Source: a virus
DNA length: 47,006 nucleotides
Direction: 5' to 3' (one strand)
IMG/VR virus record: IMGVR_UViG_3300042876_000370
Location: 1-47,006 of that record
The notes beneath the pieces were generated by a model, which worked only from the letters and a program-made list of their open reading frames with translations, searched no databases and was not told the DNA's origin. Both the position numbers and the translations under genes were made by a program. Every line of letters starts with the position of its first letter. The first letter of the stretch is position 1. Shown here in pieces: positions 11,548-34,714 of the stretch.

Positions 11548-11548
11548 A

Positions 11549-11633: not shown

Positions 11634-11653
11634 AACCCCATGGAGGTGGGAGC

Positions 11654-12043: not shown

Positions 12044-12046
12044 CCT

Positions 12047-12364: not shown

Positions 12365-12915
12365 TGAACAACCGGCAGCGGGTTTTTATTGCTGAATATC
12401 TCAAGGACTTCAATGCCAGTCGTGCGGCTCGTGCGGCTGGCTATTCTGAAAGAACAGCCCGAAAGATAGGCTCTGAAAACCTCACAAAACCAGACATAAA
12501 AGCAGAGATTGACCGCCTGATTGCCGAGCGCACGATGGGGAAAGAGGAAATACTGCTGCGCTTGACTGACATTTCACGCGGCGATATGGCTGACCTGATG
12601 GACATTACCCCGACCGGGCACACGGTTGAGCTGATGAAGCGCGATGAGCAGGGCAACCTGGTCGTAAAACCTGAGACCAAGCTGATCCGCAAGATCAAGA
12701 CCAAAGTCACCACGATCATTTCAAAGCGAGCCGACGCCGATGATAAAGAAATTGTCGAGACAGAGCTGGAGTTGTACTCGGCACTGGATGGCCTGCAAAC
12801 CCTGGCGAAGATCAACGGGCTGGTGATTGATAAGGCCGAGATCAGCGGGCCCGAGGGTGGGGCCATTCCCTTAGAGATGTTTGAGAAGGCACTCAAGAAA
12901 GCTTATGGCGAATGA
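12364..12915 (+). CDS. terS: Terminase small subunit
   Basis: GTG start at 12364 (overlaps the upstream stop). The 183-aa protein matches the Terminase_2 family: NNRQRVFIAEYLKDFNASRAA, then AGYSERTARKIGSENLTKPDI, forming the helix-turn-helix DNA-binding domain, then IAERTMGKEEILLRLTDI and a C-terminal oligomerisation/beta region ending LEMFEKALKKAYGE. It recognises phage DNA and feeds the large subunit. It overlaps the large-subunit gene by 11 bases. Confidence 0.9.
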   Translation: MNNRQRVFIAEYLKDFNASRAARAAGYSERTARKIGSENLTKPDIKAEIDRLIAERTMGKEEILLRLTDISRGDMADLMDITPTGHTVELMKRDEQGNLVVKPETKLIRKIKTKVTTIISKRADADDKEIVETELELYSALDGLQTLAKINGLVIDKAEISGPEGGAIPLEMFEKALKKAYGE

Positions 12916-16047: not shown

Positions 16048-16048
16048 C

Positions 16049-16327
16049 ATGCCACTGACCGCGCTGGACGTGGATGATGCCCTCAGCCTGGGCGATACTG
16101 CCGCCTCCGATATGCTCAAGGAAGCGGAGAAGGCCTATTACAAACCCTATGACGACGCGAAAAGGAAAGTCGCCTGGGCGGAGATCATGAAGAAGATCGG
16201 CTCAACCTACCCGCAGCTCGCCGGGCTGAGCGTGGCGCAAATCGAGAAAGCGCTGCGAGCGATGGATAACGCGAAGGTGGAGGAATTGAAAAAGCAGGTA
16301 GACCAGATGGAGGTAGCACATGGCTGA
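16049..16327 (+). CDS. Small helical virion-region protein (92 aa)
   Basis: The protein starts MPLTALDVDDALSLGDTAA and is predicted helical, with KAYYKPYDDAKRKVAWAEI and a C-terminal Glu/Lys-rich helix. It sits between the portal and the disordered Trp-rich protein, overlapping the latter by 8 bases. Possibly a chaperone or internal head protein; no family recognised. Confidence 0.6.
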   Translation: MPLTALDVDDALSLGDTAASDMLKEAEKAYYKPYDDAKRKVAWAEIMKKIGSTYPQLAGLSVAQIEKALRAMDNAKVEELKKQVDQMEVAHG

Positions 16328-17078
16328 TCGTAACGATGAGGGCGGGGTTGCAGCTCAGTCCAGTTCATGGAGCTGGCTCAACCAGCAGGCTGCGACCGTG
16401 ACGCCGCCGGCTTACAACCCCCCGCAGATCCCCAACAATTGGAGCTGGATGCAGCCAGGCGCCGAGCCGCCTGCGCCCCAGCAGCAGGAGACCCCTTACC
16501 AGGAAGTGACCACGCCCATAGCGCCGGCAGCCCAGCCAGCCCCCTCCTGGAACCTTACCCCGCGTATGTCCACCCTGGAAGAGATCCTCAAGCGCCAGGT
16601 CAACAGCGGCGGGATTGGTTATAACCCCATCCCCGTTACAAACGCCTGGGGGATGAGGAATAACGCGCCCAATGGACAAATCAATACCTGGGGACCGATT
16701 GACCCGAACGTCGCTCAACAGCAATCGAACGCCTGGGCAACGCCAAACCCAAACTTCTCTTACGGGAAGCCCGCAACCTTCCCGACGCCGGCCAACTACT
16801 GGCCAGCCTCAACCCAGGCGCCGACCAGTCCTTACGCTGGCCTGCGTGTTCCCCGCGGTATGAACCGCTGGCAGGAACCCGAGGCGGTCCAATACAACAG
16901 CTATATCCCCGGGCGCCTGCCCCCTCCGCCCAAGGCTGGCGGGGGTGCGGCCGGCGGCGGTTATGGTGTGAAGCCTCCCTCCGGTGGCGGCGGTGGGGGT
17001 GGCGGCGGTGGCGGTGGTTTTGGCGGCGGCGAGAGTGCTGCCCGGTGGTGGCTTCCCCCCAGTGTGTGGAGAATATAG
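16320..17078 (+). CDS. Disordered Trp/Pro/Gly-rich protein with poly-Gly tract
   Basis: The 252-aa protein is mostly low complexity. It has spaced short aromatic motifs (SSWSWLNQQ, NNWSWMQPG, APSWNLTP), Pro-rich linkers, and a C-terminal run of 12 Gly near residue 222-233 encoded by GGT/GGC/GGG repeats (about 16982-17031). It ends WWLPPSVWRI. Gene order places it directly before the giant polyvalent gene, whose ATG follows its stop immediately. It may be an internal virion or scaffold-like tether; no fold is recognisable. Confidence 0.6.
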   Translation: MADRNDEGGVAAQSSSWSWLNQQAATVTPPAYNPPQIPNNWSWMQPGAEPPAPQQQETPYQEVTTPIAPAAQPAPSWNLTPRMSTLEEILKRQVNSGGIGYNPIPVTNAWGMRNNAPNGQINTWGPIDPNVAQQQSNAWATPNPNFSYGKPATFPTPANYWPASTQAPTSPYAGLRVPRGMNRWQEPEAVQYNSYIPGRLPPPPKAGGGAAGGGYGVKPPSGGGGGGGGGGGGFGGGESAARWWLPPSVWRI

Positions 17079-20000
17079 ATGACTGACAATTCGCAGAGCA
17101 AGACGCCCATTCTTGACCAATATTACAAAGACCAGGCCGCGAAAGATGCGGCTGCTACTGGCGCGCCGGCAGTCTCGAACAACCCGAACCCGCTGGGGAT
17201 CTATGAACCCGGCCAGGATATGGGACCGCTGCGCTACAGTCCTGAAGAGCTGGACTACTGGCAGAAGGAATATGCCAAGACCGGGGAGAGCATTGACGCG
17301 AACTGGCTGGGCAACCAGCAGCAGCTCATCTATGACTACCACATGGCGCGGCCGGCGGACTCGTATTGGGAAGAGCCAAGCACCCTGGCGCGCTGGGCTT
17401 TGCTCGATCAGAACCTGCCCAAGGAAGCGGCCCGCCCGGTCTGGATGCAGTCTGATGTGTTGCAAGGGCTGTACAACTACCTGAGCGAACAGAACGGCAA
17501 CAAGCCGTGGTATGAGTGGGAGAAGCTCAAGACGACCGACCCGGTGCGGATCTTATTGCAGCGCATGCCGCTGCCTGATACCGGGGATATGCCCGACTGG
17601 GAGAAGAAGGCGCAATCCATTTACGGCAACCTGCCGCCTGACATTCTGAACGCCATCAGCAGCCTGCCCGACCCGCAGAAGTGGGGCGAGCAGCGCGCGC
17701 TGACCAGCGAGCAGACCGCCAAGATCCGCGAGATCAATAACTTTATCGAAAACCCCACGGTGGAGCAGGGCACAGACGCCAACGGCAACCCGATAGAGAT
17801 GGTCGCCGGCATCTCCAAGGCCGAGTGGGATGCGATGGACCTGGGCCAGAAGGCCGAATATATTGCCATGTCTCCCACGTCACCCTATGCGGCCCTTGTT
17901 CAGGCGCCGGCCATTGGGGTAGGGATGGGCGCGGTAGGCAGCGTGCTGGAAAGCGTAGGCCTCAAGGCGTTGTTCTCTCCGCAAGGTCTCAAGAATGTGA
18001 TTGCGGGTGGCGCTAAGGGCTTGATCCCCGGGGTTGCGTTTGGGATTGCGATGACCGCGGCCCAGCAGTACCGGCCTATGGAAGCGCTGGGAGCGGACCC
18101 GGCTGGCGTCCAGGCGAAGGGCTGGTTTAAAGACCTGTTGACCTCCATGGGTTTCCGGGTGGCGCCAGATGCATCCTGGGAAGATGCGGCCATGGAACTG
18201 CTCAACCTGCCCATGAATGAGATCCAGAAGCAAATCGGCTGGGGTGTGATGAACGCTGCGGACCTCGGGAAGATGCTGCGCGGTGAAGCCCCGGACACGG
18301 CGACCTTTGAAAAGATGGTCGCGCCCGAAGACCGGGACACGCCCGAGAAATTCAAGCAGCAGTACGAGCTGTGGAAGAACGCGCGGCTCGAAGCATCGCG
18401 CGCCTTCTACCAGACCGACCCGTTCAAAAACCTGACGGCGCGCGGTGTCGAAGTGCGCCAGCCCGGCAGCAAGGAAGTAACCCAATGGTCGCCGGCCGAT
18501 CCTAATTCATCCGTGTCTGAGTACGTGCTGGATCAGATTGCGATTGACATTTATCACAAGCTGAACGCCGGCGAACCCCTGGCGCCGACTGAGCTGGCCT
18601 ATCAGCCCATCCTGCAAACCCTGTTTGGGGTGGGCGGGCAGACCTCCAACCTGATCGCCCAGGTGGTATTAGACCCGTCCGACTTGATCCCCAAAGGCAT
18701 CAGTATTGTCTCTTCGGAGGCGAGCAATATTGCGACCAGCGTGATCGCCGGCAAGACCCCGAACGCCAAGCTGTCGGCTGCCATGCTGGAAGCCAAGGGA
18801 CCATACAGCGGACTGAAGCAATACCAGGCTGATCTCAAGCGCACGCCCGTGAATGAAATCCTGGATAACTACGGCTGGTTTGAGCGCACCTTAGCCGGGA
18901 TCGATGAGACCGGGCAGCGGAAAGACCTGAACACCGTTCAGAAGGGGAATGCAATCAGCCAATTCTTCGGCAAGCTGGCCGGGCTGACCCCGGAAAGCCG
19001 CGTCTTCGAGGTGGTGCATACCACCTATAACAGCGTGCTCAATATGCTGGACAATTTCCGGCGCGACACCGGCGCCGACCCTGAGCAGATGGTGCAATTT
19101 ATTGATCGTATTTCGGCCCCGACGCCCGAGGCCGCGATTCGGATGGCGGCGCAGGCGGAGACCATTACGGTGCCTATGAAGGTAGGGGGAGAAACGGTTT
19201 CAACTCCCCTGCCCCGCCAGTTCGCAAGCCCCGAGCTGCAGCCGGCCTTGATTGCGCTCAAGGACCAGGAAGTAAAAGTCCACGACCTGCTGAGTGAATG
19301 GCGCAGCGCGGAACCGGCCCGGGATCTGGTACGGCGCGCGGCGGCTGCTTTGGAAATGGACGAGCACCAGGTCATGGCAACGATGCTGAAGGGTGGCACC
19401 GAGGCGCGCAGCCTGATCGACCTGGCGACCAAGAAGGGCATGGCGGACGCGGCCGGATTGGAAGGGGCGGCGAAAATCTTCTATGATCCCACCAACAAGG
19501 CCAGGAAGACCGCCTTTTCTTCTGAAGACTTCCAGGCGGATCTCTCGATCTTACTGGCAGAAGGCGCCGAGAAGTGGGCCATTGGTCACTTTGGGGTGAA
19601 GGAAATGGGCTGGATGAACAAGCTCAACAACCTGATGAAGAACGCGCAGGGGTTGGTGCTGTTCGACTATAACCCGGCCTATGCCCTGAACAATGGCATC
19701 AATAACCTTGTCACTCTGGCATGGGATGGGCTCTTAGGCAGCTTCCGAGGCCCAACCTACAGCCGGCTGCTGGAGCGCTTTGGCCGACCCAGCTTTACCG
19801 AATCAGGCTTGACCCCGGCTGAATATGGCACCGGGCAGGCCGAGGCGGGCCTGGGTGGGCGCAAGGGCAGGGCGCAGAGCATCGGCGAAGAGGTGCGCAA
19901 AACCCGCTGGGGGACTGGCCGCATCGCCGATGCTAATGAGTTCGTGGGTGGCGTGCGCGGCAAGCTGGGTTTATTCAATCGGCTCTCGGGCTGGATGGAG

Positions 20001-23000
20001 CGCCGGACCAGTCAGATCGCAGTGGCGACCGCCCTGGATGAGATGATGGGCAGGAAGTGGCGCGCGAGTGCCGACCCCAAGAGCGGGGGCTATCGCAAGC
20101 TGCCGGCGGATTTGCGCGCGGACCTGAACCGGATTGCGCCCGGGCTGGCGGATAAGCTGGAAAAGGCGCCGGCTCGTGGGCTGAACGTGCAGGAAGTGGA
20201 GCGCGAAATCTTCAGCCGCTGGAACCAACGCAGCGTGAAGGACGTGCTGAGCGAAGGCGAGTATAACCTGCTCTCCAAGTTCCCGGCTGTGCTGGAAGGT
20301 CTGGAGACCAAGTTGCGGACTGCGACCGATATGCGCGGGGTAGACCAGGCGATTGACGAGACCAAGACCGAGTTTCAGGACCAGGTAAAAGAACGCCTGG
20401 CGCAATCGACCCGGGCCATGGTCGAACAGGGCAAGGCCGACATTACCGTCGAGGGCACGCAGAAAATCTTAGACAAGATTGATGATGTAGTGCCGAACCT
20501 GATGGAGTTTTGGGGCAAGTATCAGGACGCCATGGGCGAGACCGCCGAGCGCGCGCGCAACGCCCCGACCGACGAGGAAGCTGACCGGATCTGGTTTCAA
20601 AGCAAACGGGAATGGAATCAAAACTGGCGCAACTTCGAGGTATTGCAGGCCGGCACCTGGCGGGGTGTGTTCGAGGGATTGGGCATCAGAAGCATGGACG
20701 CGGCCAACCCAGCGAACAAACCCTACTTTGATTTCATGCAGAGCATGCAGGATCTGCACGACCGGCACCAGGCTTATTTCGTGGTGAGAGACCGGGAGCT
20801 AACCCGCTTCTTTACCGCCAAGAAGAACAAGAACATCACCAAGCGCGACCTGTCCAATATTTGGGCGGACGTGCAGCGGATCAACAACGAGGAATATATC
20901 CGCATGGTGGCGGATGAAGACGCGATCCAGGCGGCTGCGGATGAGGCATTCGTCACCCAGTTTGACCAGGAACGGCCCGAGAGTAAGGGCAGCGCGGCCC
21001 AGTGGCGCAGCGCCATCCGTGACGTGCGCCGGCAGATGATGCTCTCCGAGATCCTTTACCGCGGGGGCAGCCTGCCCGCTGGATTGGTCAAGGAATGGGG
21101 TGTCACGCTTCGCCCTGAGATCGTGCAGGAGATCAACAGCCTGACCCTCAACCGGGCAGAATGGCTGATCCCAGGCAACGAGCGGCCCGGCATACAGAAA
21201 GGTTATGCCGACATTCGCCGGCGCTTCCTGCGGGAAATGCTGGACGCATCGAACGGCAACCCGCCCGGCAAACCAGTCGCCCCACCCCCGGCACCGACCA
21301 TGCCGCCGGCGACTCCAATCGTGCAAACTGCACAAAAAACGCAGCCAGCGGCCCCAGGATCGGCGCCTAGCCCGATTGCTGAAGCAAGCCCTGTACCGAT
21401 GACCCCGGCAGCGCAAACAGGCCCTACAGCGCCCGTCCTAGCGGCTCCTGGGGGCATTGATGCGGTGACCGGACTGCCACATTATGATTACGCCCAACCC
21501 AAACCGGTGGCGGTGGTGGATCTATACGACCGCGAGGGTGCGGCTCTCAATCAGAGCGAACGCATGAACGTCCTGGCGCAGACCATTGAAGCCCAGGGAA
21601 TCGGGCAAGCAGCCTGGTATGGTGATGGCAAGCTGGCGGTTGTGGTCTCGGATCTGGACGCCGCCCGGACTGCCTTGCAGAACCTGGCCGATACCCAGGA
21701 GGGCGCCTTTGTCTTCGGGCTGGGCGCGCGCGCGGTGGACGCCGAGATTGCCGCCGGCCGCTATAAGAAGATCAACCAGCCCCCCGAACGGCGCGCCGCT
21801 ACCCGCGAGGAACGCCTGCAGTGGCTGGCCACCCATGACCAACTGACCCGGCTGTGGAATAAACTGGCGTTTGATGGGGATGGCGGCCAGATCAAGGGCG
21901 ATTGGCAGGAACGGATTGAACTCAACCAGGCAATGGGCTTACCTGCCCCGGTTGTCAGCGTGTTGGACGTGCGCGGCTTGCATGCCACCAATAACGAGAT
22001 CGGTTATGACGCCGGCGATGCCTACTTAAAAGCGATTGGGAAAGCCTTCACGGATGAGGGTTTAGATGGCTACCGGACCGGCGGGGATGAATTTGCCGCA
22101 ATCTTTGACGACCCCGCCCAGGCCAAAGAAGCCATGGACCGGGTGATTGAACGCATCAATGGTGCGATAATTCAAGTAGGAGAGAAATACTATGTCGGAT
22201 CAGCAGCCCATTACGGGACCGGCGGAGACTTCAAAACCGCCTACGAAGGACAGCTCGCAGCCAAGCGCGCCGACCCGCGCGCCGCAGAGTTCGAGCGTGC
22301 CACCTACAAACTCAAACCCGCCAGTGAAAGTGATCTTGCCGCCCAAGGGCAGCCACCTGATACCGCGCGCCCAGGCGGAACGGCTGGGACTGATACCACC
22401 CCGGGACGCACCTACGGCGGAACCATCGAAGACCTTGACGCCGCCGAGCGCGCCCGAGTCGACGCCGCCCGCGCCAGCTTCGCCGCCGGCCTCAACCGAG
22501 AGCAACACTTTGCCAAGCTCAGCCCCCAAGAGCGAGTAGTCCGCGAGAGTGAGGACTTCCGCCAGGCTGCCGCCCGGTTGCTGGATGAGCTATCGGGAGG
22601 CCACCCCGAAAAAATAAAAGGTGGTCCAATCCTGGGATCGACCAACCCGGAATGGTACAGCCTGCTGTATGACAGTTTCAAGAAGAACGGGCAGAGCCTC
22701 AATAAAGAGCTGCTGCGCGATGCCCTGCAATCCATCATCGACAAAACCGAAACCGAGTTCTACGCCGCCCGGCGCAATAAAGCGTTGGGCGATCAGTATA
22801 TCAACGAGGCTGAAAGGCTGGTACTGGGTTCGCTCTCGGAGAATGAACCGGTGCAGTTGTGGCTCTCTCATCGCTATCGGGACGCCATGCTGTCCTTCGA
22901 TGCGGTCAATGAGCAGCTTAAGGCCGCGGGGCTGGAGCCTTACGATGTGCTGCGCGAGATGCAAGCCGCGGGCTTCGGCGAAGAGCAGGCCAACAATTTC

Positions 23001-26000
23001 TATAACGCCTACGTCGCCTACCTGGATGGCCGCGACCCGCTGCCCGGGCTGACCACCGAAGAAGCCCATGGACTGGTAGCAGGCATGCGCGCCGCCGACC
23101 TGGTGGAAGTGACCGCCAGTGGCGAGATCCGCACCCCCGATGACATTGAAGCCCTGATCCCTGAAAAGCAGGCCCTGGAAGAAAAGCAGCCCAGCCGCGA
23201 AGCCCTACGCAGCGCAGTCCGCAAGGCCGCGCATGAAGCCGGCTTTGACTACGACGATAAGCACCTGATCGCCAGCGTGAACAAATACCTGGAGATCCCC
23301 GAGGGGCGGGTAACGAGCGTGGACGACCTGACCCCGGAGATGATTGACGCCTGGGTAAGCGCGCGCTCGAAAGCCAGCAAGGAAGCCGAAGAGATCAAGC
23401 GGATTGCGATTGAACAGGCGCGCATCCTGGATGAAAACCTTGAGGCGATCCGCGCGAAGTACCCGGATGAGGCCCGCGCCCACGAGATCAAGGATCTGCT
23501 GCTTGATTTCTACGGCGACGAAGACTTCGCCCAGGCGAGCTGGGAAGATTTTGACCTGGTGACGCGCAACCTGGCAGCCGTGACCGGCGAGAGCGTGGAC
23601 GCGCTGCGGGAGAGGATCTTAGCCAGCGTGGGTGATATAGACCTGCCCGCGCACCTGGAACAGCTTGCCGAGCTGCCAGTACAGGAAGGCTTGACGCGCC
23701 GGCTGGATGAGGCGCGCAAGGCTTTACTTGAAGAAACCTGGCATGACCCTGTTGCGAAACGGTTTATTGAACGGTATGAGCAGGAGGGTTATTATCGCCC
23801 AACCTATACTAACGATGGAAATTTCGAGCTGCACCGGTCAGAATTTCCTTCGTTTGTTGGGCATGAGGCAGCCTGGGAAGAGTTCAAGCTGGCCCTGTCA
23901 GACCTGAAATGGTATGAGGAGACCGGCGAGATTGCGGCCAGCACGATGAAGAGCTACCGAGATCTGCTTAATCGTCGGCACTCGGGTGAGTTCTTATGGC
24001 AGGACAGCGAAGGCAAGGCCATGGTAGAGAAGGCCGTTCAGAGGTATGGAACGACTGAAGACTTCGGCCAGGCTGGGTACATTCTCCCTGATGGACGGTT
24101 GCTGAACCTGAGGCGGGCAGAGCGGGATTACTTGGAACATTCCGGCGTAGCTGCGCATTTGTTGGGGCGCAATAAGACAAGCGGAAACGCAGACATTCGA
24201 GACTTCCAACGCCAGACTAATGCCATCCGAATGGACGCCTCTTCACCCAGCGCAGGGAATGCTTTGATCTTTTTGGATATGGCTACTCGTCCAACACGCG
24301 CACAGATGCGGGCTATCGAAAATGGAATCGCGTACAGCCCACATAACTACTTCACAATCCAGTACGACACGCCGGGAGGCGGGTACGGTACCTTCGGGAC
24401 CACCAAGGCGAACGCCCTGGACGACCTTAACAAGATGGTCCGCCAACGGTTTGACAATGCCCTCTTCCAAGATCGCAACGGCGCCACCTTCTGGGATGAA
24501 CAAGGGCGCGCGCACATTCGCCTGATGCGAGATGCCAAGAGGGATAGCAACTTCTCCACCTGGCACCATGAGTTTTTCCATGCCCTGCTGCCTTTGCTGC
24601 CGGCGGATATGCTCAAGGTGTTCGAGAAATACCTGGCCGACGAGCATGGAATCAGTAACCTGCCCGAAGGTTGGCAGAACGGCACCAAGAACGCCAAGGC
24701 CAAGGAGATCTTAGCCCGGGCAAATGAGCGCTACCTGGTGGAAGGCAAGCACGTTTTGAACCTGCCCGCCCAGGTGGTGGCTGTGCTGGATAAGATCAAG
24801 ATCTACATGCTCAAGGTCTACCAGCAGGTGACAGGTCACTCGATTGATGTGCCGCTGCCTGACTACCTGACAGAGGTATTTGATCGGCTGCGCAAGGAAG
24901 AGGAAGTCAAGCCGGTTATCCCCGAGAAGTCGTTTGGTCGCATCAAGCTTGGACCCAACGAGTTTGTAGATATTACCGCCTCAAATAGTGCAGATTGGTA
25001 CGGGCGATACACCGAAATGCTTAGAGGGTACTCGGCTAAAGCTGCCTTTGCGATGGACAGCAGCCTGTCCGAGGCAAGCAAAAAACTGCATGCGGCTGGC
25101 GTGTGGAACGCTTACGAGCAGCTCAACGACTTGAGAAATGCGCTTCTTGATAGCGGGATCAAGAGAATAGCGATCCCAACAGACCCCCGCAATATGGGGT
25201 TAGCAGACACCCGCCAGGTAGCCGAACCTCCATTATCCCCCGAGCCTGTTGCAACTACCGCAACACCAGAAGGACAATTCAACCTGATCCCTGAGACCGA
25301 GGGTTGGCAGTTGCAGGCGCAGACCGCGCAGGCGCAGAAGTTCAACCCGGCGCGCGAAGATTTGCAATCGTCCCTCTTCGAGCTACCCCAGCCCGAGGGG
25401 ATTAAACCAAAACCAGCGCCAACTACCACGGACTTAGGCCCGCTATTTGCCAACCAGCCCGAGCCCGAACCCAGCCCCTGGGTCAAGCAGGCGCCGGTTG
25501 CCGAACCCGCACCCGACCGCCAGGCGCGCCTGATGACCGCCCTCACAGAGCGGATTGTCAGCCAGCAAGATTTGTTCAAAACGTCGCGGGACTTTGAAGA
25601 CTTCGCGCGCAGTTTTGGATTTGACCTGGACCGGGAAGCGGATCTCAATTATGCGTATGACCTGCTAGAAGGCTCATTCAATCTGTTGACCCGCCGGCTG
25701 CGGGCGAACATGGCCGGGCTGCCCCTGGTGGATCGCCTGACGCAACTGGCCGCCCTGGAAAAGCAGCTCGTGAAGGCGCGCCGGACCCTGCTCAAGAGCG
25801 AACTGCAGCAGTTCTCTACCCCCCTGACCCTGAGTGAAGCCGCGGGAGAAGCCGCCGACGTGCGCCCGGGTGACGTGATTTGGGAACCCACCGCCGGCAC
25901 CGGGAACCTGGTCAACCGCTTCGCGGACGATAAGAGCGTGAGTGTGCGCGTCAACGAGATCGACCCGCAGCGCCGCGAAGTGCTCAAGCTGATCGGTTTC

Positions 26001-29000
26001 AATCCGACTGACCTGGATCTTCTAAGTCCGAAATGGCTGATTGGCAGCGATAAGAAGCTGCTCAAGCCGAACGCCAGCGTTCAAATCACGAACCCGCCCT
26101 GGGGGGCTTACTCCACCGGGAAATACGGGCAGGCCATGCCGCACCCGATCAAGGGTATGAACGACTGGTCGCAGCGGTTTACCTACCTGATGATGGAACG
26201 CCTGGCGCCGGGTGGCCGATTCGTGGGCGTGATGCCCCTGAATTGGATGTATACTGTGGATAGAAGCTCGCGCGCCCTCAACGTCAAGAAGTCAGCCTTC
26301 TTGACCTACCTGGAAGAGAATTACAATGTGCGCGCCCTGATCGAAAGCCCAGCAGGTGCCTACGATCAACGCGCGACCGGGGTAGGATCTCTTCTCATCG
26401 TGGTCGATAAGACCCAAAACAGCCTCAAGGATAGTAATACCAGGCTGTACCGTTGGGGTGAGAGCGCCCCGAAAGACTGGGCCGAGTATGCGGACCTGAT
26501 CAACCAGATCCAAAAGCGCGACCCGGAGGAAGTAAAGAGAGGTCAAAATGCTGCCCGAGCAACCGGACTCTTCAGCGATAGGAGCTTCGTCCTTCCCACC
26601 AAGCAACAACCCACCGGCCCCGATGCCGCCGGAATTGCCGACCCAGCCGCCCGCCGAGGTGAGCGAACCGGCGACCCCGCCAACATTGGAAAGCCCATCG
26701 AGCAACCCGCCCGAACCGAACCCCCAGCAGAGCGAGAACCCGCTGGAGGATTACCTGTTCAGCGGCCCGATAGAGAAGCAGGATCTATCAACCCAAGACC
26801 TGGTAACGAATTATCTGGGATTGGGGAGCGAATTGGCGGACAGCCCGGAGGACGTGCAGCGGATGCTGAACAACTGCCAACCCCGCCAGAAGGTAACAAC
26901 GCCCCCGTGGTGGAAGGGCAAACCCCAGGCGTTCCGGGACCGCTGGAACCAGGAATACCCGAACCGAGTGGACGACCTGGCGGAGAGCAGCCCGCAGCTC
27001 TTACAGAAGACCTGGGAGTACGGCCTGTTGAGCTCGCCCCAGTCCCAGCCGCAGAGCCCAGCCGAGAAGATATTGACTACCAGCGCAAGTGGCAGGCAAC
27101 GATTGATGCAGTTGAGAGCGCTGGAACTTTTGCTGGATATGTGGGGAGAAGCCAGGCAAGGTTAGAGGCTGAAGGCTACCCGACCCACCACCACCCCAGC
27201 GTGGTGGTCGAAACCAAGGCACTCATGGGAGTGCCGTACCCCGAGCTTGAAGACGCATACCGCCCGACCGATGGGGTGATGAAAGCTTATCAGAGTGGCG
27301 CCCTTTCCATGGAAGGGCAGCTTGACGTTGTGTGGGCGGCGATCCAACAGAACGATAAGCATGGCATGGGGATGCTGGTGGCGGATGACGTGGGCATGGG
27401 CAAGAGCCGCAGCGCCGCCGCCTTCGCCCTGGACCGGATTGAACGCGGGCAGAAGATCGTGCTCGTTGTTACCAAGAACCCGGGCAACGTGCGCAACCTG
27501 ATGAACAACGAGTTTCCGGCGATCTTTGGGGAGCAAAAGACCCGCTTCGTGGATCTCTCGGGTAAGAACATGCCCGATGTGAAGAACAAGAAAGAAATCC
27601 CCATCCCCACCTATGACGAGCCGGCGGTGTACTTTATGAGCGCCACCGAGTTCGCCTCCTTCGGCAACAAACTCAAGGATCTGCCCGTTCAAAGCGTGAT
27701 CGTGGATGAAGCCCACACGTTTAAAAGCGTGGACGATACCAAGCAGGGCATTTTCTGGACCGGTCTCCATGAGAAATGGAACGCTGATGGCGTGAATTTC
27801 CTGTACCTGACCGCCACCCCCGCGACCGACCTGATGGAAATGAAATACCTGTATGGTTTGAAACTGTGGACCGTGGACGGTTTTGGGGATTGGCTGGGGG
27901 TGCTGACCGGCAAGATGAGCCCGGAACAGGCCAAGACCAAGGCCAAGGTTTTCAACGAGGCAGCGGCTTATCAGAAGCAATTGACCGAAGCGGCCGCGCC
28001 GGTCCTGACGAATGTGGAACCTTTGTTCGGCGGCAAAGAGTTGGGCTACAACTTTGACGACAATCTGTACTACCAGGAAGGTCGCCAAAAAGGAACCGGG
28101 AAACTGATCGCCAGTGACCGTTATGGCAGCCCGGTTGAGATTTACAGCGGTGATGCGACCATGGCCGCGATCATCGGGCAAACCTTGAGCGACATTCTGC
28201 AGCCAGGCGAAAGCGGGCAAATCTCTAAATATATGGTGGACTATTACAAGTCCCAGGCGATGCAGGCGATTGACGAGAAATTCCCCGCGCCCAAGATCGA
28301 CAAAGAGACCCGCGACGCCCTGAACACGGATGCCTCCGATGCCCTGGAACTGCTGGATAAGAAGGGTAAGAAGCGCTTCGGCGCCGGCCGGACCGCCTTC
28401 GAGAGCACCCTGCCCCCGGAGCACACCGAGCAGATCATGCGCGAGATGAAGCTGGGCGGCAGCTACATGAGCCGGGATATTGCCCGGAACGGGGTGGAGT
28501 TTGAGGCCAAGGAAATCAAGCTGACCCCCGAACAGAAACGCCGGCAGGATGAACGGATTGACTTCTACCGCCAGGTCATCGCAGCCTATCAGAAATGGGG
28601 CAAGTTGAACAAGCAGAAGAAGATGGACTTTGGGGTAATGGGGAAGATCCAGGACGATGCCAAGCGCGCTCTGTTTGACTACCGCCTGACCCAATCGCTG
28701 CCCGAGATCGACGCGGCGATTGCGCGCGGGGAGCAGGTGGTGATTGCGCTGGTCTCGGTGGGCGAAGTGGACCCCCTGCAAGGCGGGCACCTGCGTTCAG
28801 CAATCGATATGATCAACCACGAGGAATCGCACGAGACCGGCGATGGCACGTACAGCGACCCCGCGGACATACCCGAGGCCCAAGAGGAAAAAGCCAGGCT
28901 GCTGGAGCAGGCCGAAAAACTGGGCCTGGGCAGCCCGATCAAGCTGCTCGAAAGCAAGTACGGCGACCGGATTGGGTTTGTGACCGGCGAGGTCACGGAT

Positions 29001-32000
29001 AAAGCCCGCGCCTCTGCGATGACTGCCTTCCAGCGGAACAAGCTGGATGCTATCGTGATCTCCGGCGCCGGCAAGACCGGGATCAACCTGCACGACATTA
29101 CCGGCAAGCGGCGCATGCACCTGATGGTGGTGGACTTCGACTGGTCGGCCACCGAGTTTAAACAAGAGCTGGGCCGGGTAGACCGCACCGGGCAGAAGAG
29201 CGCGCCGAAAGTGACGGTCTTCCATACCGGGAACGCAGCCGAGCTGAAGTTTATCTCGACCATCACCAACCGCATGAAAGGGCTGGGCGCAACCTCTAAG
29301 GGCGGATCGGAATCGACCGGCACCAGCGCACTCAACGAGCAGTTTGAGCTGGGCTCGACCTACGACAAAGAAGCCCTCAATGAGATGTGGCGCAAGCTGC
29401 CCCGCCCGGATAAGCTGCTGTTCATGGATAAGTATTTCTACGATAACGGACAGCCCAAGGCCGAACTGAGGCAGACCGCCGAGGCAATCAAGAAGTTCAC
29501 CATGGCGCTGCAAAGCATCAGCCTGGATAAGGCCAATCAACTCGTAAAACTCTGGATGGATGAGCGCGCCAAGTTTACCGAGTTGGAAGCCGGGGCTGCG
29601 GCAGTCAAGAAACAGATGAGCTCAGGCGACGTGCTGCGCACGACCGAACTGGGACCGAACCTGACCCTGACCGAGGCGCGCGACGCGACCGGGCACCGTT
29701 TTGGGGTGGTCTCGGGGGTACTTACCCCGCAGATGAACAAGCTGGCCAGCGCCTTCGGCAGCACAGACAGCGAATTTGTGAATGGCGAATGGCGCCCGAA
29801 ACAATGGCGGGAGTGGATCAACTTTACCAATACGACCAACAATGAGAAAGTCTCGGGCCTGGTCATCCCCCCAGGAAAGATTGAAACCATTGCGGCCATG
29901 TACGGCACCAGCATCAAGGCCAACCGCAGCATAGCGACCGCCCTGGAAGACATCAAGGCCGGCGATAAGCTGCCGATCGTGGGCGCGGATATGAATGAGT
30001 GGACCCTGCGCCTGGGCACGCTGGGCGCGCGCAAGGGCAAGATCGTGATTGAAGGCGCGCGCATGGCACAGAAGAACCCGCTGATGAACAACGGCGCGCG
30101 CTATGATGCGGTTGGATCGTTCTTCTATGTGCCCGAGGAAAAGCTACAAGACTTCCTGCACCGCTTCCCGCTGCGCGAAGAGACGCCGCCGGGAGCACTC
30201 TACCAGGAGGCAGAAGCCCCAAGCGTTCCGCCTGGCTCGCGCCGGATGGCAGCGAACCCAGCCGATGACATTCGCGCTGTGATGACTGGGCAGGCAAAGC
30301 TAGAAGACTATGGCCCGAATGTGCAAAAGTTTATTCAGGCGGGTATCGCTCAGTTTGTCTCTTCTTACGAGCGAAAAGCAGGCACCCCCGAATGGATGGA
30401 ATGGTTTAAGCCAACCTACGAGGCATACAAAGCGCGCCAGCAGCCAGCTACCCCGGCTGTCAATGCCCCGCTGGGCACCGCCGAAAGCATGAGCCAACCA
30501 CCGACCGATACCGCCCAAATGATGGGCTACCTCTCGGAGGTTGGGCCAGTCCTGGAGAAAGCGCGCGGAGAGTTCGGCAAACAGCGCGCCACCCCTAACA
30601 GCGTGATGAACCTGGAGCAAGCCTTACCGCCCGAGACCATGAAGAAAGTACGCGGCTGGGCGGGCGGGGTCTATGCGGACCTGGCCGACACCAAGTACCA
30701 GGCGATCCAACACGCCAAGATGCGGCGGGATGCCGCTTTGCTGGACTACACCAAGCGGACCGGCTTCGATAACCTGCTGGGCGCGATCTTCCCGTACTCC
30801 TTCTGGTACACCCATTCGATGGTCAACTGGGCGATCCGGGCGCTCGAACGCCCGAGCACCCTGATCAACTACATGCGCATCCGCAACCTGCAAAACCGCC
30901 AGCAGAAAGAAGCAAACAGCCCGGGCCGGCTGGAAGGCAAGATTGAGCTGCCGTTCCTCTCCCAGGCATTGGGCGGGCGCTTCTTTGTGGACCCCATGCG
31001 CCAGATTTACCCGTTCGAGCAGATGCTGCGACCGTTTGAGAACTTCGCGGCTGACAAGAATCAGGCCGAGAAGCGCGCGGCGCAGCTCATCACGTACCAG
31101 GCGGAGAACGAAACCATCACCAGCGCCGAGGCGCAGACCGCCATCACCAGCAAGGCCGGTCCGCTGTGGGAGCGGGCCTATAACCAGGCGGAGCTGGAGA
31201 TCAAGGACGTGCAGCCCGGCGAATTGTCTTCTCAGTGGCAGCCCGGGCAGTCGCGGGATTGGGTGGATCTGGCGTTCCAGGTCTTATCTCCCAGCCTGCC
31301 CCTTTCTTTGGGCTATAACCTGGCGACTGGCCGGCAGATGGGGAGTCTCCCCGTTCAACGCTTCGTGCAGAACGTGACCTCCCCCTTCGGGATCGGCGGA
31401 CCGCGCGGGTTTATGCTGACCCGAGATAAGTTTGACGATTATAGAGAGGACAGAGAGTTGGCAAACATGGCCGGCGAAGGGCTGATTTCAACGGATGAAG
31501 CCAAGCGCGCCATGATCGACCGGGTTGGACCGGCCTTCGCGCAGGCCCAGCAGCGGGTAGCCAAGACCACCAGCGTGCAATACTGGCTGTCTTCTCTCGC
31601 GGCGGACCTGTACCCGGAGGGCGAACAGCACAACCGCGAACTGCACGACGAATATCTGAAGGCCCTGCAGCAGAAGGTGATGGGCGATAAGCAGGCCTTG
31701 AATAAGTTCTATGACGAGTACCCCGAGTATGAGGCCCGCAACGCCTCTTTCGATGAACCCGAGCCGCGCCTACGCCAAATGCTGATCTCGCAGATTTGGG
31801 ACAAATACGGCGAACTGAACAAGCTCAACCAGGACGCAGCGCAGAAACAACTGGGCGAGAAATTCGGCAATGCGTTTGTCAACAAAGAGACCCGCTCTTA
31901 TGACAGCATCGACACGCAGACCCTGGGCTTTTGGGCCAAGACCCTGGGCGCCAAGACCCCGGCGAAAGTGGCCGCCCCTGAGACCCCCTTGCAAGGGGTG

Positions 32001-32894
32001 CCAGCGGCCACCAGCGCGAACTATGACGCCTTCACCGCGGCCAAAGCCCAGGCCTTCCCGGGGCTGGACGCCCTCTATAAAATCTACTGGACTGCCAAAC
32101 CCGGAGAGCGCACCCTGATCGAAAAGGGCCACCCGGAGATGCAGAAGTACATGAGTTGGAAGACCCAATACCTGGCGCAACACCCGGACCTGATTCCCTA
32201 CGAGATCAGTGAAACCAGCAGCCTGTACGGCGCGCCGGCGCAGGTCCAGCAGTATGTTTATCAATACTGGGCCGGACGCGACCAGCGCTATCCGGGCATC
32301 ATGGACACGCAGGAAAAGTATTTCTCCTTCAGCGACAAAGCCGCGAAGAAGGCCTACCTCACGGCCCACCCCGAGTTATCGGAATATTGGGACTGGCGCA
32401 AGCAGGTTGCCGCGCAGATGCCAACCGCAGCGCCATACATCTTCAGCGCCGAGACCCTGGCCGGGATGATCCTGGGCACCAGCGGCAGCAGCGGGGGCAG
32501 TAGTGGCGGCAAGAGCGCGCCGCAGGTGGACGTACCGGCTCAATTGCGCCGGGTGGTGGTGGAGCATGCCAACGCCGGGACCAAGCTCAGTCTCGGGATT
32601 GAGAGCGAGACTCGCGCGCTGATGGCGAAGGTTGGGGTAAGCGGCTCAATGGAAACCTTCTGGCGGGATATGCTGCCGCAGATCCAACCCCAGGAGCACC
32701 CCCCGGTACTGTCTCAAGACGAGTTAGCCCAAATCCCCCCCGAACTGACCCGGCAACTGACCGCCCTGAAATATGGCGGGAAACCGCTGGGAGCGGGCGG
32801 GCTGGCGCAGGTGGATGCGCTGCGTAAGAAGTTGAACATTCCGACCGACGCGGAAGGCTTCTTACAGGTCTACCTGCTGCCGGCGCTTCAATAA
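17079..32894 (+). CDS. Giant polyvalent protein (5271 aa): GGDEF, metallopeptidase, DarB-like methyltransferase and helicase
   Basis: One uninterrupted frame from ATG 17079 (GGAG 7 bases upstream) covers a third of the genome. Domains by residue: helical N-terminus with a Gly/Ala-rich hydrophobic stretch (268-331); Pro/Ala linker (1395-1460); degenerate GGDEF-like domain (1461-1560, DAVTGLPHYD and WYGDGKLAVVV); GGDEF domain (1585-1735, THDQLTRLWNKLAF, LDVRGLHATNN, RTGGDEF at 1666-1672); polyvalent-associated domain (about 2330-2420, AGYILPDGRLLNL and RPTRAQM); zincin motif HEFFH at 2497-2501; adenine methyltransferase (2908-3100, QQFSTP, EPTAGTGNL at 2936, NPPW at 3005); SF2 helicase of strawberry-notch type (3400-4060, DVGMGKS to 3443, DEAH at 3543, GRVDRTGQ at 4032); hydrophobic IFPYSFWY at 4570; two C-terminal repeats (about 4993-5052 and 5071-5130). 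Methyltransferase plus helicase is the make-up of P1 DarB, a virion anti-restriction protein. Position between portal and scaffold suggests packaging and ejection with DNA. Confidence 0.88.
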   Translation: MTDNSQSKTPILDQYYKDQAAKDAAATGAPAVSNNPNPLGIYEPGQDMGPLRYSPEELDYWQKEYAKTGESIDANWLGNQQQLIYDYHMARPADSYWEEPSTLARWALLDQNLPKEAARPVWMQSDVLQGLYNYLSEQNGNKPWYEWEKLKTTDPVRILLQRMPLPDTGDMPDWEKKAQSIYGNLPPDILNAISSLPDPQKWGEQRALTSEQTAKIREINNFIENPTVEQGTDANGNPIEMVAGISKAEWDAMDLGQKAEYIAMSPTSPYAALVQAPAIGVGMGAVGSVLESVGLKALFSPQGLKNVIAGGAKGLIPGVAFGIAMTAAQQYRPMEALGADPAGVQAKGWFKDLLTSMGFRVAPDASWEDAAMELLNLPMNEIQKQIGWGVMNAADLGKMLRGEAPDTATFEKMVAPEDRDTPEKFKQQYELWKNARLEASRAFYQTDPFKNLTARGVEVRQPGSKEVTQWSPADPNSSVSEYVLDQIAIDIYHKLNAGEPLAPTELAYQPILQTLFGVGGQTSNLIAQVVLDPSDLIPKGISIVSSEASNIATSVIAGKTPNAKLSAAMLEAKGPYSGLKQYQADLKRTPVNEILDNYGWFERTLAGIDETGQRKDLNTVQKGNAISQFFGKLAGLTPESRVFEVVHTTYNSVLNMLDNFRRDTGADPEQMVQFIDRISAPTPEAAIRMAAQAETITVPMKVGGETVSTPLPRQFASPELQPALIALKDQEVKVHDLLSEWRSAEPARDLVRRAAAALEMDEHQVMATMLKGGTEARSLIDLATKKGMADAAGLEGAAKIFYDPTNKARKTAFSSEDFQADLSILLAEGAEKWAIGHFGVKEMGWMNKLNNLMKNAQGLVLFDYNPAYALNNGINNLVTLAWDGLLGSFRGPTYSRLLERFGRPSFTESGLTPAEYGTGQAEAGLGGRKGRAQSIGEEVRKTRWGTGRIADANEFVGGVRGKLGLFNRLSGWMERRTSQIAVATALDEMMGRKWRASADPKSGGYRKLPADLRADLNRIAPGLADKLEKAPARGLNVQEVEREIFSRWNQRSVKDVLSEGEYNLLSKFPAVLEGLETKLRTATDMRGVDQAIDETKTEFQDQVKERLAQSTRAMVEQGKADITVEGTQKILDKIDDVVPNLMEFWGKYQDAMGETAERARNAPTDEEADRIWFQSKREWNQNWRNFEVLQAGTWRGVFEGLGIRSMDAANPANKPYFDFMQSMQDLHDRHQAYFVVRDRELTRFFTAKKNKNITKRDLSNIWADVQRINNEEYIRMVADEDAIQAAADEAFVTQFDQERPESKGSAAQWRSAIRDVRRQMMLSEILYRGGSLPAGLVKEWGVTLRPEIVQEINSLTLNRAEWLIPGNERPGIQKGYADIRRRFLREMLDASNGNPPGKPVAPPPAPTMPPATPIVQTAQKTQPAAPGSAPSPIAEASPVPMTPAAQTGPTAPVLAAPGGIDAVTGLPHYDYAQPKPVAVVDLYDREGAALNQSERMNVLAQTIEAQGIGQAAWYGDGKLAVVVSDLDAARTALQNLADTQEGAFVFGLGARAVDAEIAAGRYKKINQPPERRAATREERLQWLATHDQLTRLWNKLAFDGDGGQIKGDWQERIELNQAMGLPAPVVSVLDVRGLHATNNEIGYDAGDAYLKAIGKAFTDEGLDGYRTGGDEFAAIFDDPAQAKEAMDRVIERINGAIIQVGEKYYVGSAAHYGTGGDFKTAYEGQLAAKRADPRAAEFERATYKLKPASESDLAAQGQPPDTARPGGTAGTDTTPGRTYGGTIEDLDAAERARVDAARASFAAGLNREQHFAKLSPQERVVRESEDFRQAAARLLDELSGGHPEKIKGGPILGSTNPEWYSLLYDSFKKNGQSLNKELLRDALQSIIDKTETEFYAARRNKALGDQYINEAERLVLGSLSENEPVQLWLSHRYRDAMLSFDAVNEQLKAAGLEPYDVLREMQAAGFGEEQANNFYNAYVAYLDGRDPLPGLTTEEAHGLVAGMRAADLVEVTASGEIRTPDDIEALIPEKQALEEKQPSREALRSAVRKAAHEAGFDYDDKHLIASVNKYLEIPEGRVTSVDDLTPEMIDAWVSARSKASKEAEEIKRIAIEQARILDENLEAIRAKYPDEARAHEIKDLLLDFYGDEDFAQASWEDFDLVTRNLAAVTGESVDALRERILASVGDIDLPAHLEQLAELPVQEGLTRRLDEARKALLEETWHDPVAKRFIERYEQEGYYRPTYTNDGNFELHRSEFPSFVGHEAAWEEFKLALSDLKWYEETGEIAASTMKSYRDLLNRRHSGEFLWQDSEGKAMVEKAVQRYGTTEDFGQAGYILPDGRLLNLRRAERDYLEHSGVAAHLLGRNKTSGNADIRDFQRQTNAIRMDASSPSAGNALIFLDMATRPTRAQMRAIENGIAYSPHNYFTIQYDTPGGGYGTFGTTKANALDDLNKMVRQRFDNALFQDRNGATFWDEQGRAHIRLMRDAKRDSNFSTWHHEFFHALLPLLPADMLKVFEKYLADEHGISNLPEGWQNGTKNAKAKEILARANERYLVEGKHVLNLPAQVVAVLDKIKIYMLKVYQQVTGHSIDVPLPDYLTEVFDRLRKEEEVKPVIPEKSFGRIKLGPNEFVDITASNSADWYGRYTEMLRGYSAKAAFAMDSSLSEASKKLHAAGVWNAYEQLNDLRNALLDSGIKRIAIPTDPRNMGLADTRQVAEPPLSPEPVATTATPEGQFNLIPETEGWQLQAQTAQAQKFNPAREDLQSSLFELPQPEGIKPKPAPTTTDLGPLFANQPEPEPSPWVKQAPVAEPAPDRQARLMTALTERIVSQQDLFKTSRDFEDFARSFGFDLDREADLNYAYDLLEGSFNLLTRRLRANMAGLPLVDRLTQLAALEKQLVKARRTLLKSELQQFSTPLTLSEAAGEAADVRPGDVIWEPTAGTGNLVNRFADDKSVSVRVNEIDPQRREVLKLIGFNPTDLDLLSPKWLIGSDKKLLKPNASVQITNPPWGAYSTGKYGQAMPHPIKGMNDWSQRFTYLMMERLAPGGRFVGVMPLNWMYTVDRSSRALNVKKSAFLTYLEENYNVRALIESPAGAYDQRATGVGSLLIVVDKTQNSLKDSNTRLYRWGESAPKDWAEYADLINQIQKRDPEEVKRGQNAARATGLFSDRSFVLPTKQQPTGPDAAGIADPAARRGERTGDPANIGKPIEQPARTEPPAEREPAGGLPVQRPDREAGSINPRPGNELSGIGERIGGQPGGRAADAEQLPTPPEGNNAPVVEGQTPGVPGPLEPGIPEPSGRPGGEQPAALTEDLGVRPVELAPVPAAEPSREDIDYQRKWQATIDAVESAGTFAGYVGRSQARLEAEGYPTHHHPSVVVETKALMGVPYPELEDAYRPTDGVMKAYQSGALSMEGQLDVVWAAIQQNDKHGMGMLVADDVGMGKSRSAAAFALDRIERGQKIVLVVTKNPGNVRNLMNNEFPAIFGEQKTRFVDLSGKNMPDVKNKKEIPIPTYDEPAVYFMSATEFASFGNKLKDLPVQSVIVDEAHTFKSVDDTKQGIFWTGLHEKWNADGVNFLYLTATPATDLMEMKYLYGLKLWTVDGFGDWLGVLTGKMSPEQAKTKAKVFNEAAAYQKQLTEAAAPVLTNVEPLFGGKELGYNFDDNLYYQEGRQKGTGKLIASDRYGSPVEIYSGDATMAAIIGQTLSDILQPGESGQISKYMVDYYKSQAMQAIDEKFPAPKIDKETRDALNTDASDALELLDKKGKKRFGAGRTAFESTLPPEHTEQIMREMKLGGSYMSRDIARNGVEFEAKEIKLTPEQKRRQDERIDFYRQVIAAYQKWGKLNKQKKMDFGVMGKIQDDAKRALFDYRLTQSLPEIDAAIARGEQVVIALVSVGEVDPLQGGHLRSAIDMINHEESHETGDGTYSDPADIPEAQEEKARLLEQAEKLGLGSPIKLLESKYGDRIGFVTGEVTDKARASAMTAFQRNKLDAIVISGAGKTGINLHDITGKRRMHLMVVDFDWSATEFKQELGRVDRTGQKSAPKVTVFHTGNAAELKFISTITNRMKGLGATSKGGSESTGTSALNEQFELGSTYDKEALNEMWRKLPRPDKLLFMDKYFYDNGQPKAELRQTAEAIKKFTMALQSISLDKANQLVKLWMDERAKFTELEAGAAAVKKQMSSGDVLRTTELGPNLTLTEARDATGHRFGVVSGVLTPQMNKLASAFGSTDSEFVNGEWRPKQWREWINFTNTTNNEKVSGLVIPPGKIETIAAMYGTSIKANRSIATALEDIKAGDKLPIVGADMNEWTLRLGTLGARKGKIVIEGARMAQKNPLMNNGARYDAVGSFFYVPEEKLQDFLHRFPLREETPPGALYQEAEAPSVPPGSRRMAANPADDIRAVMTGQAKLEDYGPNVQKFIQAGIAQFVSSYERKAGTPEWMEWFKPTYEAYKARQQPATPAVNAPLGTAESMSQPPTDTAQMMGYLSEVGPVLEKARGEFGKQRATPNSVMNLEQALPPETMKKVRGWAGGVYADLADTKYQAIQHAKMRRDAALLDYTKRTGFDNLLGAIFPYSFWYTHSMVNWAIRALERPSTLINYMRIRNLQNRQQKEANSPGRLEGKIELPFLSQALGGRFFVDPMRQIYPFEQMLRPFENFAADKNQAEKRAAQLITYQAENETITSAEAQTAITSKAGPLWERAYNQAELEIKDVQPGELSSQWQPGQSRDWVDLAFQVLSPSLPLSLGYNLATGRQMGSLPVQRFVQNVTSPFGIGGPRGFMLTRDKFDDYREDRELANMAGEGLISTDEAKRAMIDRVGPAFAQAQQRVAKTTSVQYWLSSLAADLYPEGEQHNRELHDEYLKALQQKVMGDKQALNKFYDEYPEYEARNASFDEPEPRLRQMLISQIWDKYGELNKLNQDAAQKQLGEKFGNAFVNKETRSYDSIDTQTLGFWAKTLGAKTPAKVAAPETPLQGVPAATSANYDAFTAAKAQAFPGLDALYKIYWTAKPGERTLIEKGHPEMQKYMSWKTQYLAQHPDLIPYEISETSSLYGAPAQVQQYVYQYWAGRDQRYPGIMDTQEKYFSFSDKAAKKAYLTAHPELSEYWDWRKQVAAQMPTAAPYIFSAETLAGMILGTSGSSGGSSGGKSAPQVDVPAQLRRVVVEHANAGTKLSLGIESETRALMAKVGVSGSMETFWRDMLPQIQPQEHPPVLSQDELAQIPPELTRQLTALKYGGKPLGAGGLAQVDALRKKLNIPTDAEGFLQVYLLPALQ
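22192..22539 (+). CDS. Candidate nested gene 1 (+1 frame, inside the giant gene)
   Basis: A 115-aa Pro/Ser/Thr-rich ORF (MSDQQPITGPAETSKPP...) lies in the +1 frame where the giant protein leaves its GGDEF domain and enters a linker. AGGAGA sits 8-9 bases before the ATG. Codons in this frame favour G and C at the third position, but so do those of the giant frame here, so codon use does not decide. The product looks disordered except for PRAQAERLGLIPPRD. Evidence for translation is the ribosome site and the shared relative frame with nested gene 2. Confidence 0.35.
   Translation: MSDQQPITGPAETSKPPTKDSSQPSAPTRAPQSSSVPPTNSNPPVKVILPPKGSHLIPRAQAERLGLIPPRDAPTAEPSKTLTPPSAPESTPPAPASPPASTESNTLPSSAPKSE
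26548..27165 (+). CDS. Candidate nested gene 2 (+1 frame, inside the giant gene)
   Basis: A 205-aa ORF in the +1 frame begins at ATG 26548 with AGAGAGGT about 5 bases upstream. Residues 1-60 are Pro/Ser-rich; residues 65-165 look folded and helical (NPLEDYLFSGPIEKQDLST, SPEDVQRMLNNC, WWKGKPQAFRDRWNQEYP). From about 26735 to 27100 this frame uses the genome's usual codons (CTG, GAG, AAC, CAG, CCG), while the giant frame over the same bases uses many GGA, CCA, CGA, GCA and TTA codons and encodes a Gly/Pro-rich linker between the methyltransferase and helicase domains. That contrast suggests the nested frame is under selection. Function unknown. Confidence 0.55.
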   Translation: MLPEQPDSSAIGASSFPPSNNPPAPMPPELPTQPPAEVSEPATPPTLESPSSNPPEPNPQQSENPLEDYLFSGPIEKQDLSTQDLVTNYLGLGSELADSPEDVQRMLNNCQPRQKVTTPPWWKGKPQAFRDRWNQEYPNRVDDLAESSPQLLQKTWEYGLLSSPQSQPQSPAEKILTTSASGRQRLMQLRALELLLDMWGEARQG

Positions 32895-33706: not shown

Positions 33707-34714
33707 ATGGCGGGAATCACATTAACGCAGCTCGCCCAGGTGCAGAAAGACCCGGAAGTAAAGTTCATCGAACTGTCCCTCCTGCGGGAGAGCCGGGTGA
33801 TGAACTACATCTCTTTCGAGAATGTCAGCAACCTGAAGGTAGCCGCGCAGTATTGGCAAAAATTGCCGACTGGCGGAAGCTGGCGCCAGGTCAACGCAGG
33901 CTACACCTCTGCGGAAGACGGCCAGCTCGCCGAAGCCGAAGAGTATTTGTACGCCTTCGGTGGTGACATCACGTTTGACACGGTTCTTGAGAAGATCAAG
34001 GACGTGGCGCGTGATCCCATCCAATTGCAGGTGGAGGGCAAATTGCGCTCCATGGCCCTGCAGTGGAATGACAAACTGATCAACGGCGATGTTGGGACAG
34101 AACCCAACTCGTTCGACGGTTTGAAAAAGCGGGTAGCCGGTCTCCCCACTCGCCAGACCGTGTATTGGGCGGCCTCCAACGCCGCACCCCTGGACCCCAC
34201 CGCCAGCGCCGCGAACGCCCGCAGCTTCTTCAACCGGCTGCGCACCGCAAAACGCTACTGCAACGGCGGGCAGGTCGATGCGATCCTGTGCAATGAAGAT
34301 TTCGTCCTGGGGATCGCTGCCGCGCTGCTCTACCTGCAATCGGCCGGCAATTACCTCACGATCACCAAGGATCAATTCGATCTGGAAGTGGTCAGTTATC
34401 AGGGCATCCCCCTGGTAGACATGGGGTACAAAGAGGACCTCTCGACCGAGATCCTCACCACCACCGAAACCGCGGGCGACGCCGGCGCCGATTCGATGAG
34501 CCAATACTTTGTCGCCTTTAATAACAAAGAAGGCGTGCATGGCATTCAGCTCAACGATTTCACCGCCTACGATCCGCTGAAGGGCGCGGAAATGGAGAGC
34601 AAGCCCTCCAAACTGAAGCGGATTGACTGGTGGAACGGGATTGCCAACTTCGGCACGCGCTCCATGGTGCGCGCCCGCAACTTGAGCAACCTGGCCGGGT
34701 TCACGGAGAAATAA
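33707..34714 (+). CDS. Major capsid protein (HK97-fold type)
   Basis: The 335-aa protein has the course of an HK97-fold capsid protein: N-terminal helix (TLTQLAQVQKDPEVKFIEL), E-loop strand region with WRQVNAGYTSAEDG, spine helix region (VLEKIKDVARDPIQLQVEG), then LINGDVGTEPNSFDGLKKR, a segment common in podovirus-like capsids, and C-terminal A-domain strands (VVSYQGIPLVDMG). It follows the scaffold gene with a 3-base gap, and late promoter 2 upstream would give high expression. Confidence 0.8.
   Translation: MAGITLTQLAQVQKDPEVKFIELSLLRESRVMNYISFENVSNLKVAAQYWQKLPTGGSWRQVNAGYTSAEDGQLAEAEEYLYAFGGDITFDTVLEKIKDVARDPIQLQVEGKLRSMALQWNDKLINGDVGTEPNSFDGLKKRVAGLPTRQTVYWAASNAAPLDPTASAANARSFFNRLRTAKRYCNGGQVDAILCNEDFVLGIAAALLYLQSAGNYLTITKDQFDLEVVSYQGIPLVDMGYKEDLSTEILTTTETAGDAGADSMSQYFVAFNNKEGVHGIQLNDFTAYDPLKGAEMESKPSKLKRIDWWNGIANFGTRSMVRARNLSNLAGFTEK

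Follow-up and report, generated by a model that had tools for sequence, protein, structure and literature searches.

Whether a phage protein that joins an adenine methyltransferase (MTase) to a superfamily 2 (SF2) helicase is a second DarB, the protein of phage P1, and whether it protects incoming DNA from restriction, is the question raised by a giant open reading frame (ORF) in the virus record IMGVR_UViG_3300042876_000370 of IMG/VR. The whole record, 47,006 bases, was analysed and is called the window below. An initial annotation, made from the sequence alone, had placed a DarB-like module in this ORF. Our results indicate that the two domains are indeed fused in one chain with all their motifs intact, and that the module is almost certainly, as to domains and subfamily, a methylase-helicase dyad of the strawberry-notch type (Sno-type) belonging to a polyvalent protein.

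A methylase and a strawberry-notch ATPase in one chain

The six motifs on which the initial annotation relied (QQFSTP, EPTAGTGNL, NPPW, DVGMGKS, DEAH and GRVDRTGQ) were all located where it had put them, in one ORF and in the order given (Table 1), an arrangement that none of 2000 shuffles of the giant protein reproduced. Codon-position GC is coding-like over the entire ORF, and another IMG/VR contig, IMGVR_UViG_3300044712_000954, is identical base for base to positions 7079-26670 of the window, which covers the first 9.6 kb of the ORF. An antisense ORF at 27162-28790 (542 amino acids) was regarded as a side effect of the high GC content of the coding strand. The core of the module does lie within the span first proposed, 25800-29340, but the conserved module is slightly longer (about 25626-30176), since the alignment with the giant ORF of an uncultured phage, L017, the nearest relative with good coverage, continues past the helicase to about residue 4366.

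The MTase matched the Pfam model N6_Mtase slightly under the cut-off (7.5e-4). A single-sequence search of the PDB gave nothing; profiles then gave matches. The profile of 70 methylase domains (A2) matched an adenine-specific MTase (3e-13) and structures of type I HsdM (about 1e-9 to 5e-12), which makes the methylase assignment unambiguous; by this profile, the closest solved relatives of the domain are type I HsdM subunits. The domain shares 32.8% identity with that of a dyad from a Jannaschia plasmid (E 2e-21). In A2, the motif X columns Q67, S69 and T70 are invariant and Q66 and P71 nearly so, and the E, P, G and G of motif I are invariant or nearly so. The domain has the features of the EcoKI/TaqI-like gamma-class MTase of the published dyads, namely an N-terminal TP motif and a motif IV of the NPP(Y/F) type (PMC5512222), with W as the fourth residue of motif IV in the window, where most of the 70 sequences have F. 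In the published dyads, an LPD36 domain with the motif GXG(G/A/S) is nearly always present N-terminal to the MTase (PMC5512222). No such motif was seen in the stretch directly before QQFSTP, and Pfam gave no LPD domain; because LPD36 is said to be so nearly universal, the window dyad may be a variant.

The linker behind the MTase is rich in Pro, as had been proposed (15%, against 6% in the whole protein), and in Pro and Gly together (28% against 14%). It leads into an ATPase whose single sequence matched both strawberry-notch models of Pfam above the cut-off, Helicase_C_4 (4e-18, 66.5 bits) and AAA_34 (2e-17, 63.6 bits), so that the helicase had been typed correctly. In addition to the helicase motifs of Table 1, motifs Q (GQLDVV) and Ia (VLVVTKN) were found. 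A profile of 64 helicases reached ISWI/SNF2 remodellers in the PDB, weakly, and with an SWI2/SNF2-like SF2 ATPase that follows the MTase on one polypeptide the module agrees with the published definition of the dyad (PMC5512222). Behind the ATPase, where the Sno-type subfamily has a C-terminal winged-helix domain, the window carries the conserved extension of residues 4161-4366. The catalytic residues, whose loss had been named as fatal to the proposal, are retained in a proper alignment, with the motifs conserved across the 70 methylases and 64 helicases.

The fusion and its order are those of DarB; the lineage is not. P1 DarB (2255 amino acids, translated from AF234172) matched the Pfam models SNF2-rel_dom, Helicase_C, N6_Mtase and Eco57I, and none of the strawberry-notch models. 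Therefore, the statement that P1 DarB itself combines a methyltransferase with a strawberry-notch helicase is wrong in its second half. Profiles built from five plasmid strawberry-notch dyads only, with the window left out, gave the window 82.8 bits and P1 DarB 13.8 for the MTase, and 60.8 bits against 0.9 for the helicase C-lobe; the N-lobe profile alone gave the window 10.3 bits and was not decisive. In the methylase tree the window falls on the Sno side, together with L017 and with L018, another uncultured phage (support 89, not starred), and P1 DarB and BcepIL02 (used in place of Bcep22) lie behind a starred branch, apart from the Sno-type dyads; as its end branches are long, the tree is supportive rather than conclusive and carries moderate weight. 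The window thus has the strawberry-notch NTPase and C-terminal models of the Sno-type subfamily, and has neither the SNF2-type helicase nor the DarB-lineage MTase of the P1 DarB family. Also typical of that family are packaging in the virion and in cis protection of DNA from type I restriction, on which the evidence from the window is gene position. The label DarB-like is sound for domain order and dyad class, and fails for descent. On these scores the window dyad belongs to a class of proteins already known from phages and plasmids, as a diverged member that does not closely copy P1 DarB. The published account of these dyads (Iyer et al. 2017, PMC5512222) treats DarB as their archetype, places dyad helicases near SWI2/SNF2, describes a proposed role of the dyad and notes that polyvalent proteins have Sno-type ATPases 'in a few instances'.

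Relatives, the rest of the chain and the neighbouring genes

An alignment-based scan of IMG/VR found at least 280 relatives, and 79 loci were kept. In these, at least 73 ORFs carry both domains with the MTase first, counts that are lower bounds and not frequencies because the scan was query-driven. Among the matches listed, 50 of the 73 dyad ORFs are complete (median 3841 amino acids, range 2335-5881) and 55 passed patterns for all six motifs; the Sno C-lobe lies within a long ORF in 36 of the 37 records checked. With a dyad typical of uncultured phages as query, 27 of 50,697 phage records were matched, and coverage of the query never exceeded 23%; the window's own module matched four phage records. 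Among the giant proteins of uncultured phages the Sno-type dyad is therefore common (at least 73 viral ORFs), and it is hardly seen in some 50,000 sequenced phage records. Among genome contigs, a two-sequence helicase profile found 17 loci and a single-protein helicase scan nothing; when viral contigs were scanned with the N-terminal part, the C-terminal part or the capsid protein as single queries, the same phage only, or nothing, was returned. A contig of an Ammonifex metagenome-assembled genome (MAG) carries at 568-11322 (locus L103) a 3585-residue ORF with the full dyad, a related element in a non-proteobacterial bin.

Upstream of the dyad, the same chain holds a GGDEF domain with its signature intact (HDQLTRLWNK ... 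GGDEF), which is also present in the relative L032 and, as a similar region found by hhalign, in L018. Comparison by hhalign of other segments of the giant protein with DarB, Parlo, BcepIL02, 45A6, BS-TP4, L017, L018 and L032 gave matches for the GGDEF region alone, in L018 and L032. Pfam gave no domain for the region of the zincin-like motif HEFFHAL; the Parlo and BcepIL02 giant proteins likewise carry HEAFH motifs. Positions 17079-21800 and 30180-32894 are mostly without a detectable homologue in Pfam, PHROGs or the relatives tested. Among the relatives, L017 carries LPD38, L032 has InPase together with GGDEF, and L018 has a 2H phosphoesterase that matches Acb1 weakly; domains of these kinds have been described from polyvalent proteins. 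The 2H phosphoesterase stands upstream of the methylase in this last relative (L018 6329-10987, and G002). Its giant ORF is seemingly split over both ends of its 67.7-kb contig, which suggests a circular genome.

The giant gene lies among late genes, in the order terminase, a 585-residue gene in the usual place of the portal, a 252-residue gene, the giant gene, a 234-residue gene and the major capsid protein. The 585-residue gene had no family match and is probably the portal. A terminase probe matched 18 of 37 related virus records, and in 17 of these 18 (the exception being G009) terminase and giant gene share a strand; the records are not independent events because the phages are related. 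The early region encodes two stand-alone DNA methylases and a Lar-like restriction-alleviation gene, and the phage therefore invests in anti-restriction outside the giant gene as well. One end of the window (30-806) encodes a Gp3-like recombination directionality factor and the other (42848-43974) a tyrosine integrase beside a tRNA-Val gene, a possible att site; judged by these, the phage is temperate.

Table 1. Positions in the window of the giant ORF, its domains and motifs, and selected neighbouring genes.
Feature	Position	Strand	Residues and basis
C5 DNA methylase	4871-6331		early region
Lar-like restriction-alleviation gene	7828-8577		early region
N6/N4 methylase	10091-11332		early region
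Terminase large subunit	12881-14293	+	phrog_979, 2.5e-15
Giant ORF	17079-32894	+	single open frame, 5271 codons; holds the methylase-helicase module
GGDEF domain, same chain	21825-22157	+	Pfam GGDEF 3.2e-7, above cut-off
HEFFHAL, zincin-like motif, same chain	24567-24587	+	motif only
Gamma-class N6-adenine DNA MTase domain	25626-26573	+	aa 2850-3165; HsdM/EcoKI-type PDB profile matches, N6_Mtase
MTase motif X, QQFSTP	25806-25823	+	aa 2910; QQ and STP invariant in alignment A1
MTase motif I (SAM binding), EPTAGTGNL	25884-25910	+	aa 2936; E, P, G, G invariant in A1
MTase motif IV (catalytic), NPPW	26091-26102	+	aa 3005; N, P, P invariant in 70 sequences
Pro/Gly-rich linker	26574-27230	+	aa 3166-3384; composition
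Strawberry-notch-type SF2/SNF2-like ATPase, two lobes	27231-29558	+	aa 3385-4160; AAA_34, Helicase_C_4
Walker A, DVGMGKS	27387-27407	+	aa 3437; G-x-G-K invariant in A1
Walker B, DEAH	27705-27716	+	aa 3543; D and E invariant in 64 helicases
Helicase motif III, LTATPAT	27807-27827	+	A-T invariant in A1
Helicase motif V, GAGKTGINLH	29064-29093	+	T-G and H invariant in A1
Helicase motif VI, GRVDRTGQ (arginine finger)	29172-29195	+	aa 4032; G-R..R..Q invariant in A1
Conserved C-terminal extension of module	29559-30176	+	aa 4161-4366; aligns to end with L017
Major capsid protein	33707-34714	+	phrog_212, 9e-38

Proposed role of the giant protein and its alternatives

We propose a series of steps in which the giant polyvalent protein, made together with the head proteins, would be packaged in the capsid and enter the cell with the phage genome. 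The ATPase would then travel along the incoming duplex, and either the fused MTase would mark adenines or the dyad would dislodge restriction complexes already bound there, in both cases keeping the restriction enzymes of the host from cutting until the phage's own stand-alone methylases are made. Taken as a whole, we consider this model rather probable. Packaging is plausible because the giant gene sits between the terminase and the major capsid protein and because homologous giants are virion proteins: the DarB-like gp69 of JC1 (4515 amino acids) gave 51 unique peptides and was among the best-scoring virion proteins (PMC9144972), and P1 DarB is a virion protein as well (PMC9024508). A virion-delivered anti-restriction role, which had been read from the presence of the two domains, is a reasonable proposal by this analogy and by gene position; the domains alone do not show it. 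Several points weigh against the model. The mechanism of DarB has been described as undefined, and in a plasmid darB assay protection proved to be DNA-induced restriction alleviation, with stop-codon versions equally effective (PMC11109961). No P1-type capsid-targeting signal is recognisable from the sequence. The window deviates from the other homologues in 30 of the 69 helicase columns that are nearly invariant, some of these deviations being alignment gaps, and because of these differences specificity may be shifted.

The giant protein could instead be mainly a machine for ejection and genome internalisation, whose ATPase pulls or clears DNA at entry and for which methylation is secondary. 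The place of the gene among head genes would suit such a function, as would the podovirus-like gene set, with an SU10-adaptor-like gene slightly under the cut-off, and the DarB-like giants of the podoviruses JC1 and Parlo (PMC9144972, PMC6606913). We nevertheless think it unlikely, as the MTase is intact and conserved together with the ATPase across phages and also across plasmids, which have no phage ejection. Less likely still, the dyad would serve once entry is complete to fend off or modify other mobile DNA, in the manner of MADS or DISARM components: PADLOC matches to mad2 (2e-12) and DrmD (1e-8) point that way, but they amount to family-level resemblance, no partner defence genes were found among the neighbours scanned, and the gene is in the head operon. 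It is very improbable that the window protein is a true DarB orthologue, of the P1 lineage and with the same partners, for although the domain order is identical, the DarB helicase, the Sno-profile scores and the tree all separate the two. A direct BLASTP match to P1 DarB was tried and found marginal, in the MTase only (1e-4, 23% identity). That the dyad is a decaying relic without enzymatic role, as its long terminal branch in the methylase tree might suggest, deserves hardly any credence when all motifs are intact, the long ORF is open and the module keeps 36% identity to L017 with its catalytic residues conserved.

The protection model can be extended to a virion protein of about 580 kDa that would inject, in one chain, a Sno-type methylase-translocase together with a protease-like zincin and a GGDEF domain resembling a nucleotide cyclase, as one of a large family of giants in uncultured phages attacking several host defences at entry; we offer this as speculation, itself doubtful.

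Comparison with known systems

The methylase-helicase dyad of polyvalent proteins is already published, and the window adds a new, diverged Sno-type member to it. A likely mis-annotation is thereby corrected, as the protein is DarB-like in a loose sense and Sno-type by lineage, and a dyad noted in few instances in 2017 is now found in at least 73 viral ORFs of uncultured-phage giants. With this catalytically intact example, the way in which dyads protect incoming DNA can be tested apart from the six-protein Dar system of P1.

P1 DarB resembles the window module in having an MTase followed by an SF2 ATPase in a phage protein of the anti-restriction class, but has an SNF2-type helicase, NVPF instead of NPPW as motif IV, a shorter chain and separate dar genes. 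The DarB-like proteins of JC1/BcepIL02 and Parlo (3764-4667 amino acids) are, like that of the window, giant phage proteins with MTase and helicase. In the Parlo protein, however, the helicase precedes the MTase; similarity to the Sno C-lobe profile is weak in Parlo and absent in BcepIL02. The plasmid 'strawberry notch family' proteins (Jannaschia, Sphingomonas, Ruegeria and Agrobacterium pTi, many of them on conjugative plasmids) count, with the giants of uncultured phages, as nearest kin of the window module. They are collinear with the window in MTase and helicase and have all catalytic motifs in common with it, but they are stand-alone proteins of about 1400-1490 residues, often beside ParB/toprim genes, whereas the module of the window is part of a giant late phage protein. 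The Sno-type polyvalent proteins (PMC5512222; for instance Methylomonas WP_020485828.1) share with the window an EcoKI-like N6-adenine MTase followed by a strawberry-notch ATPase in one chain and the context of an invading element. They differ in Walker A (GDGTGxGKG against DVGMGKS) and motif IV (NPPF against NPPW); the window has in addition a GGDEF domain upstream of the dyad and stands with L017 and L018 on a separate, diverged branch. Its nearest relatives among the matches listed are the giant ORFs of these two uncultured phages and the Ammonifex-MAG locus, with module identities of 36% over the whole alignment for L017, 31% (E 3e-69) for L103 and 39% in the MTase for L018; the N- and C-terminal remainder of the chain is without detectable similarity to L017 and L018, except for the GGDEF region of L018.

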